Source: Dehalobacter sp. DCA
GTDB taxonomy: Bacteria; Bacillota; Desulfitobacteriia; Desulfitobacteriales; Syntrophobotulaceae
Assembly: GCF_000305775.1 (NCBI RefSeq)
Contig: NC_018866.1
Location: forward strand, 1,962,501 to 2,026,500
Direction: 5' to 3'
DNA length: 64,000 bases
A program made the position numbers and the translations under genes. Positions 10,980 to 12,841 of this stretch are shown here, piece after piece. Position 1 is the first letter of the stretch; every line of letters starts with the position of its first letter. The notes beneath the pieces were generated by a model. It had not been told where the DNA came from. It did not search any database and saw nothing but the letters and a program-made list of their open reading frames with translations.

Positions 10980-11016
10980 TTATCATCTTCCAAGTGGCAG
11001 GAGCTGCCTGTTAGAC
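10980..11016 (-). repeat. Half attC-like site after the epimerase gene
   Basis: The R'' box GTCTAAC contains the TAA stop codon of the epimerase gene, as is common in integron cassettes. It is followed by A, a 13-nt arm GGCAGCTCCTGCC and ACTTGGAAGATG. The second arm and R' are missing. Confidence 0.55.
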
Positions 11017-11934
11017 GACGTTCCGGTTCCCCAATGCATCCACTAGAGCAGACCTTAAATTAGGAAACTTAAACTCAAAACCAACATCACTAATTTTTTG
11101 GGGAATAGCCCTTTGACCATGTAATAACATTTCAGACATTTGGCCTAATGCGATTTTCAATAAAAATTCAGGAACAGGAAACCATGATGGTCTTTTTAGG
11201 ACTTCACCTAAAATCTTTGTAAAGCCTTCCATTCTTACTGGTTCTGGTGCTGTTCCATTTACAGGACCAGTAACCTCATCATGCTCGATTATATATCTAA
11301 TCATTCTGATTAGATCTTGAATGTGAATCCATGGAAGCCACTGATTTCCTTTACCTAAGGGACCACCAACGTAAAATTTAAAAGGTATAACCATTGCTGT
11401 AAGAGCACCTTGACTACCTAATACTATCCCCGTACGAATAGTAACGACTCGTGTTAATTCATTTTGGACCTTGTATGCTTCAGCTTCCCATTTTCGGCAA
11501 ACCCCTGCAAGAAAATCCTGTCCAGGGCCTTCATTCTCGGTTATCTTATCATCCTGACGAGATCCATAGTACCCTACGGCGGAAGCGCTTATTAGAACTT
11601 TTGGATTTATAATCCCGTCATTTATAGCGTTAACAATAAAACGAGTTGTATTTATCCTACTATTCAATATCTCTTGCTTAACTGATTCAGTCCATCGATG
11701 GTTACCGATTGACTCCCCTGCAAAATTAATTACTACATCAAACTCCTTAAAATCATAAGCAGAAGATAGAGAAGAACTATTATCCCACTCTATTAGCTTA
11801 ACATCACCTTCAACCTTGTTTGCTGTGATTTTCTGATTTCTCGTTATAACAGCTACCTGATAACCATTAGAGATTAACTCCTTGGTTAAGTTCCTTCCTA
11901 GAAAACCTGTTCCACCAAAAATTAAAACATTCAT
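11011..11934 (-). CDS. SDR-type epimerase of the TIGR01777/YfcH family (cassette gene)
   Basis: A 307-residue extended short-chain dehydrogenase-like protein. The N-terminal Rossmann motif is GGTGFLG (residues 7-13). The YxxxK-like region is replaced by the family form SASAVGYYGSRQDD. A DUF1731-type C-terminal part is present (GEVLKRPSWFPVPEFLLKIALG ends FGEM-like as QMSEMLLHGQR). Substrate unknown; plant and bacterial homologues act on sugar-like or cell-division targets, but that cannot be assigned here. The ribosome binding site GGAGG lies just downstream of the preceding attC, and the stop codon lies inside the following attC half-site: a textbook compact cassette. Confidence 0.88.
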   Translation of the reverse strand: MNVLIFGGTGFLGRNLTKELISNGYQVAVITRNQKITANKVEGDVKLIEWDNSSSLSSAYDFKEFDVVINFAGESIGNHRWTESVKQEILNSRINTTRFIVNAINDGIINPKVLISASAVGYYGSRQDDKITENEGPGQDFLAGVCRKWEAEAYKVQNELTRVVTIRTGIVLGSQGALTAMVIPFKFYVGGPLGKGNQWLPWIHIQDLIRMIRYIIEHDEVTGPVNGTAPEPVRMEGFTKILGEVLKRPSWFPVPEFLLKIALGQMSEMLLHGQRAIPQKISDVGFEFKFPNLRSALVDALGNRNVV

Positions 11935-11955: not shown

Positions 11956-12242
11956 GTCATCACGGTAGACGCGCCGGTTACCCGGCGCACCCCGCACAGT
12001 TCCCGGCGTGCGGAACTACCGCACCGGGCTTTCCCTGCACCATTCTGTGTCAGATCATTAGCGTTACTTTATGAATCTCCTTGTCAGACTAGGGGGTTCT
12101 TTCAAAATCATTTATTCGTCCTTTTCCAATCCGCACATGGATGCGCGATCTCAGCATGGTCTTTCGCACTAACATCCTGGGGATTACCTCAACACCCCAA
12201 CCACATTCATATTGGCAAAGTTGCGGTAAAGCCCTGTTAAAC
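11956..12242 (-). repeat. attC-like site split by an intron remnant
   Basis: Minus strand: R'' GTTTAAC, A, arm GGGCTTTACCGCAA, terminal segment ACTTTGCCAATATGAATG, complementary arm TTGAGGTAATCCC (one extrahelical base), spacer CAGGAT and GTTA. The remaining GAC of R' appears 211 bp later, after the intron-like segment. Joining the two gives GTTAGAC, a good R' box. Confidence 0.75.
11959..12169 (-). mobile_element. Shrunken group II intron remnant (5' end plus domains V-VI)
   Basis: On the minus strand the segment starts with GTGCG, the group II 5' consensus. It ends with a domain V-like hairpin at 11999-12030 (begins AGCCCGGTGCGG and closes CCGCACGCCGGG, including the AGC triad) and a domain VI-like hairpin with stem GCGCCGG/CCGGCGC, then CTACCGTGAT. 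No reverse transcriptase and no domains I-IV remain, so it cannot splice. Insertion inside an attC R' box fits the group IIC-attC intron class. The 3' boundary is inferred from restoring GTTAGAC and may be off by a few bases. Confidence 0.7.
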
Positions 12243-12307: not shown

Positions 12308-12724
12308 TCACTCAATAAATGAAGTTTTACAAACTAAACAAATATGTTTATGTACACAGACAAAATTGCCACATTCTTTGCAACTCCATCTAATCTCCTC
12401 ATGCTGTAAAAATGAATCCAGATTATTTTGCTTAATGTGCTCAAGATTTTCAATCATGCTCATGTGATACTTACTTCGATACCGCTTATCCAACTGTTTT
12501 AGTCTTATGCAAGGGAATTTGTCGCATTCAAAGCAAAACCCGGATTTATTACTTTGAATTACAGAACAATTTTTGATTATGCAACTGGTGCTATTTTTTG
12601 TTTTATACCTTATATCGTCCTCGTTTCGGCATCCCTTGCAATGATTTTTTTCCCTTTGATTTGCCATACAAAGTCTGCAATTCATCCCGCAAGGAGCAAT
12701 CAACTCTTCTCTCATTTTGTTCAT
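12308..12724 (-). CDS. Cysteine-rich DUF3795 family protein (cassette gene)
   Basis: 138 residues. Sequence starts MNKMREELIAPCGMNC, the usual DUF3795 opening with CGMxCxxC, followed by CKGCR, CSVIQ, CFECDKFPC and two further CxxC pairs near the C-terminus (CKECGNFVC, CLVC), suggesting bound metal. The open frame extends upstream to 12832, but GAGGT 9 nt before the ATG at 12724 and the start of family similarity favour this start. Biochemical function unknown. Cassette orientation. Confidence 0.82.
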   Translation of the reverse strand: MNKMREELIAPCGMNCRLCMANQREKNHCKGCRNEDDIRYKTKNSTSCIIKNCSVIQSNKSGFCFECDKFPCIRLKQLDKRYRSKYHMSMIENLEHIKQNNLDSFLQHEEIRWSCKECGNFVCVHKHICLVCKTSFIE

Positions 12725-12802
12725 CTTATACAGTACCTCATCGCGTGATTTTACTGACGTACGAGATCTGATTACCACAAAGAAATACTTTAAGTCCATT
12801 TC

Positions 12803-12821
12803 ATCCGCGCCAGGACGGCGC
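12803..12821. repeat. Palindrome of the CCRTCC family
   Basis: CCGCGCCAGGACGGCGCGG: a GC stem around CCGTCCTGG read on the minus strand. It lies just after a half attC. Confidence 0.6.
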
Positions 12822-12841
12822 GGCCTTTGCACGATATGTCG

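Follow-up and report, generated by a model that had tools for sequence, protein, structure and literature searches.

A group II intron remnant at an attC site of Dehalobacter sp. DCA and its family of attC-associated introns

Group II introns that occupy attC sites, in integron arrays as well as in CALINs, are known from the group IIC-attC lineage (S.ma.I2 type), which the available part of PMC7923331 places within class C; there, these introns are described as entering the bottom strand of attC at TTGT/T, in the orientation opposite to the cassettes. According to PMC4424553, homing is usual in every lineage except class C, and insertion in attC is a minor habit of that class. Two single cases also resemble what we describe here, both as given in the accessible text of PMC7923331. 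UHB.I2 (IIB1) does not belong to class C, lies in cassette orientation and is established immediately after an attC, while an Enterobacter cloacae IIC intron (Rodriguez-Martinez 2012, via PMC7923331) occupies the attC top strand, again in cassette orientation. Concerning the hosts, integrons are rarely reported in Bacillota, and one complete integron and a few CALINs are given for Firmicutes in PMC9024848.

The locus presented here was found in a 64,000-nt stretch of the Dehalobacter sp. DCA genome (hereafter the window), between two gene cassettes read from the minus strand. In the direction of reading, its features are:

12308..12832, minus strand: DUF3795 gene of the preceding cassette, on the same strand as the attC, with its stop just before it
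12167..12242, minus strand: attC of the DUF3795 cassette, with R'' GTTTAAC at 12242-12236 and R' GTTA at 12173-12170 plus GTG
12109..12166, minus strand: cassette leader, CGAAAGACCATGC...AATAAATGAT, taken for the intron start in the earlier note
12032..12108, minus strand: stretch between the leader and domain V, without convincing match
11959..12031, minus strand: 3' remnant of a group II intron, recognized by covariance model, own-genome copies and fold
12031-12030, minus strand: two bases of the remnant at the putative deletion border
12029-11997, minus strand: domain V, within the remnant
11996-11959, minus strand: domain VI, within the remnant, the final intron base being the T at 11959
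11956..11958, minus strand: GAC, the 3' exon and remainder of the R' box before the epimerase cassette
11011..11934, minus strand: epimerase gene (NAD-dependent epimerase family; PF01370, DUF1731) carried by the next cassette

The attC of the DUF3795 cassette shows the inverted repeat between the AAC of R'' and the GTT of R', is placed 3' of a cassette gene and forms a hairpin (both strands folded). Similar attC sites were found in 23 of the 41 genomes searched, a tally that includes matches to the intron only and to the leader. Two further attC-like sites of the same array are located at 13536-13470 and 15014-14947 (minus strand), with GTTATATG as R'.

The tail (12031-11959, minus strand) terminates with CTACCGTGAT|GAC and is the real remnant of a group II intron, namely its last 70-odd bases. 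A covariance model built from 11 other 3' ends of the intron family, with the window held out, recognized it with 90 bits (E-value = 4.3e-17) and gave no second match at E up to 10 in the 64 kb. Over 71 nt, the tail is also 87% identical to full-length introns of its own genome at their 3' ends, and these matches far exceed what chance would give. Copies of this stretch are present at 933, 1716 and 832 kb (86–87% identity), and those at 933 and 1716 kb are part of 1902-nt introns with open reverse transcriptase frames. Folding revealed a domain V hairpin with a two-base bulge, now without its foot pairs, and an intact domain VI that carries a bulged A close to the 3' end. When only the ORF-less copy of a relative (G047) and the own intact intron were compared with it, the tail was closer to the former (71/75 bases) than to the latter (63/75). 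All the letters named in the earlier note (GTTA, GTGCG, two adjacent hairpins at 12029-11959 and GAC) are present, and its identification of the hairpins as domains V and VI was borne out. The domain V model of Rfam, of the kind proposed there as a check, did not report the tail even at E 10. The silence of Rfam says little, because the intact own-genome copy scored just 33.1 bits with the same model, below the cut-off of 40. A T-box leader at 50261-50019 (minus strand, 94.8 bits) was the sole Rfam family above cut-off in the window.

The intact own copy matched the Rfam group-II-D1D4-6 model (RF02005) from end to end of the model with 151.8 bits, whereas none of the domains of this model were found in the window remnant. 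D1-D4 and the reverse transcriptase, present in the intact relatives, are absent from it, and a remnant of this composition, lacking D1-D4, is expected to be a fossil that can neither splice nor move. The earlier note had proposed a remnant reduced to its two ends; the loss of D1-D4 and of the reverse transcriptase holds, while of the ends the 3' one alone survives, apart from possibly a few letters, as the sequence upstream indicates.

GTGCG is located at 12169-12165, directly after GTTA, and 211 nt separate its start from the last intron base, both counted. Introns of the family start with GTGCGCCAAGC or GTGCGCCAAGCAAAGCTTGG, while the window reads GTGCGAAAGACCATGC instead. A search for GTTAG, a gap of 0–5 and then GAAAGACCATGC in 73 genomes of the order led to eight places in seven genomes. 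Seven of them read GTTAGGCGAAAGACCATGC, the leader after GTTAGGC, and the extra T was seen in the window alone. At 933 kb of the own genome, too, this leader stands directly behind the 3' exon of the intron. It is about 60 nt long with a small GC-rich inverted repeat, and is established after R' in several cassettes of different species (window 12166-12109 and seven places in relatives). In a sensitive comparison of the 217-nt window segment with the intact intron, the domain V-VI match was accompanied by one 23-nt match to the reverse transcriptase region (E-value = 0.009), and no domain I match better than E 2 was obtained. The stretch 12108-12032 gave nothing convincing against the 73 genomes (best match other than itself 23 nt, E-value = 0.0017). 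The leader matches and the missing domain I led us to reject GTTA-GTGCG (12173-12165) as an intron 5' junction and therefore to assign the GTTA at 12173-12170 to the DUF3795 cassette as its R', with the leader of another cassette after it. Since the family starts with GTGCGCCAAGC and the window segment with a leader, just the 3' end of the intron has survived, apart from possibly a few letters. The supposition that this GTTA is the remnant's own 5' exon is not supported, since a foreign cassette leader intervenes.

The epimerase cassette was found in three states. One sister species (G002) carries it with a 294-nt intron from which the reverse transcriptase region is deleted, GTTA|GTGCGCCAAGC...CTACTGTGAC|GACGACATTCC, and another (G001) carries the same cassette without intron, as ATTA-GACGACATTCC. 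In the window, the tail alone precedes it. The earlier reading of GAC as the rest of an attC R' box was thus supported, GACGACATTCC following GTTA|intron in the one species and ATTA in the other, and, as the 3' exon of the remnant is attC, the remnant does support the interpretation of the repeat as attC. The attC upstream of the cassette differs among G001, G002 and the window, which, together with the three states, fits an intron that belongs to the cassette behind it, at its 5' end. Integron integrases cut at G|TT, so the intron would fall in the opening part of that cassette and may be carried along by it.

We therefore propose, with a probability of roughly 0.8, that the window holds the tail of an attC-homing, top-strand intron before the epimerase cassette, fused by deletion to the leader of another cassette. 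The intron would first have entered the R' box that precedes the epimerase cassette, separating GTTA from GAC, and would have been transported along with this cassette. Later, a single deletion, reaching from inside another cassette through its attC to the foot of domain V, probably joined the leader of the lost cassette to the intron tail. One such deletion would explain the order leader, stretch 12108-12032, domains V-VI, GAC and epimerase. The stretch 12108-12032 is perhaps the start of the lost cassette, for which no convincing match was found when this stretch was compared with 73 genomes, and the extra T in GTTAGTGCG would be a small separate change. Several points speak against this explanation, namely that the lost cassette it requires was not found, that the junction with the extra T resembles an intron start, that Rfam reports no domain V in the window, and that 8/18 family sites have no ORF ending at most 250 nt upstream, the nearest one up to 700 nt away being on the opposite strand at five of them.

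The resemblance to an intron start is the strength of an alternative in which both intron ends survive. GTGCG at 12169-12165 would then be the 5' end of the intron, joined to the leader by a rearrangement via the shared GCG, with the tail kept on the other side. GTTA|GTGCG is indeed the exact 5' junction of the family, and a junction at GCG could account for the extra T, unique among the eight leader places. However, this requires two rearrangements against one deletion and one base, and what follows GTGCG is a cassette leader with no domain I match, so that we regard the survival of both ends as unlikely.

The target of the family was studied with a 5'-end pattern that holds no exon letters, so that GTTA was not built in. 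Among 82 genomes of the class, intron 5' ends were located at 18 places in 11 genomes, and all 18 stand directly after GTTA (at the G003b site, where the cut was shifted by an extra C, it was read by eye as GTTA|GTGCGCCC). Inspection by eye showed a complete attC upstream of 16 of these 5' ends and its right half or less in two (G000 at 624 kb and one G003 site). At the other end of the intron, a scan of 73 genomes with the covariance model gave 19 strong 3' ends (at least 82 bits); 18 of the 19 were read, G045 being left out, and G was present at +4 in every one, as it is in R' boxes here (GTTAGGCG and GTTATATG). Full-length introns with the same 3' end as the window tail thus lie inside attC at GTTA| both in the own genome and in relatives, in keeping with the earlier claim of a remnant. 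Ten of the 18 sites have an ORF of at least 80 aa ending at most 250 nt upstream, in all ten on the intron's strand; at the other eight, the closest ORF up to 700 nt away lies on the opposite strand in five cases and on the same strand in two, and one site has none. As the near upstream ORFs are all on the intron's strand, the intron is placed in the top strand, oriented with the cassettes. Judging from these insertion points, the family as a rule homes to the R' box of attC (GTTA|) in cassette orientation. The exact 26-base 5' end was found in four stretches among 84,980 species genomes, from Desulfosporosinus nitroreducens and two Peptococcaceae assemblies, a search from which records near the window's genome were possibly omitted.

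Regarding the intron class, the reverse transcriptase of the relatives carries the RVT_1 and GIIM domains. In a protein tree of 17 rows, with a partial LtrA row left out, the family was represented by the proteins at 933 kb, of G040 and of G011. They stand apart from the clade formed by the GsI-IIC reverse transcriptase, that of entry 7uim (a class C enzyme), the own-genome reverse transcriptase at 547 kb and one from Lactiplantibacillus. Forcing the family into one clade with the GsI-IIC enzyme and three others was rejected (p-AU 3.9e-6). The tree holds no S.ma.I2-type protein, and what it says about group IIC-attC therefore depends on the placement of this lineage in class C by PMC7923331.

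The earlier note had assigned the remnant to the known group IIC-attC introns, to which its position at an attC R' box and the RVT_1 and GIIM domains of the relatives' reverse transcriptase would also lead. This assignment is not supported: the available part of PMC7923331 describes a bottom-strand insertion at TTGT/T against the cassettes, whereas the family of the window sits at R' on the top strand, oriented with the cassettes, and has a reverse transcriptase that groups outside class C. The top-strand position, the cassette orientation and the rejection of the protein from the GsI-IIC clade led us to reject the canonical group IIC-attC type, and a remnant of such an intron is very improbable. 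The single cases mentioned above differ as well, as far as the accessible text of PMC7923331 describes them. UHB.I2 is known from one copy, whose ends (UUGCG..GU) are odd and whose flanks are not conserved, whereas the present family has many copies, GTGCG..AY ends and a fixed GTTA| target; the Enterobacter cloacae intron is one case, reported as IIC, whereas this family is outside class C. No report of this intron family was found in the literature searched, as far as the accessible parts of it go. The kind is already known, that of attC-associated group II introns, of which the family is a new variant and the window copy its fossil. As for the tail having been kept for use, for example in the expression of the epimerase gene, whether as promoter or as leader structure, we give this hardly any credence: the tail does lie directly before the ribosome site and gene with domain VI intact, but its one promoter-like site (0.8 in shuffles) is on the other strand and the epimerase cassette of G001 does without the intron.

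ORF-less copies offer a further view of the family. Two 679-nt copies on one contig (G047:C13, L147 and L148) are 99.4% identical and occupy separate attC sites at a distance of about 4.8 kb, with different 3' exons, and one copy of 675 nt was found in G053. No family protein was detected at E 1e-60 in either assembly, and these data suggest that the ORF-less copies may move in trans. We lean, with some reserve, toward the broader view that this non-class-C lineage is a dedicated parasite of Bacillota integron arrays, which would read the attC top strand, insert as GTTA|rest of R' and thereby join the next cassette, while its ORF-less 675–679 nt forms (two copies on one Desulfosporosinus contig) would move in trans.

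Other mobile elements were also located in the own genome. At C1:1713943 (minus strand), another group II intron (L036), which starts with GTGCGTCCTGG, interrupts an attC within its left arm (ATAACAGTGAATTCCCA|), and its reverse transcriptase (C1:1712218-1713333) is 47% identical to the 933 kb protein. This insertion point is a second attC-associated target. At C1:1710259 (minus strand), a different group II intron has its 3' end directly against the domain V-VI interval of a family tail, which looks like one intron nested in the remnant of another. Finally, a broken tyrosine recombinase, whose C-terminal part resembles that of integron integrases, lies beside a cassette array at C1:1720279-1720733 (minus strand). 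No integron integrase above the TIGR02249 cut-off was present in the own genome, nor any at E 1e-40 in 73 genomes, a search in which no positive control was registered either.

The value of the window fragment, itself a fossil, is that it leads to the family. The attC homing described so far concerns class C introns and the bottom strand, with single exceptions (PMC7923331, available part). Here, 18 out of 18 insertions in Bacillota fall at one top-strand position and belong to introns outside class C, which suggests more than one origin of attC homing. Additionally, as the intron is established inside the mobile unit, cassettes could carry introns between arrays.
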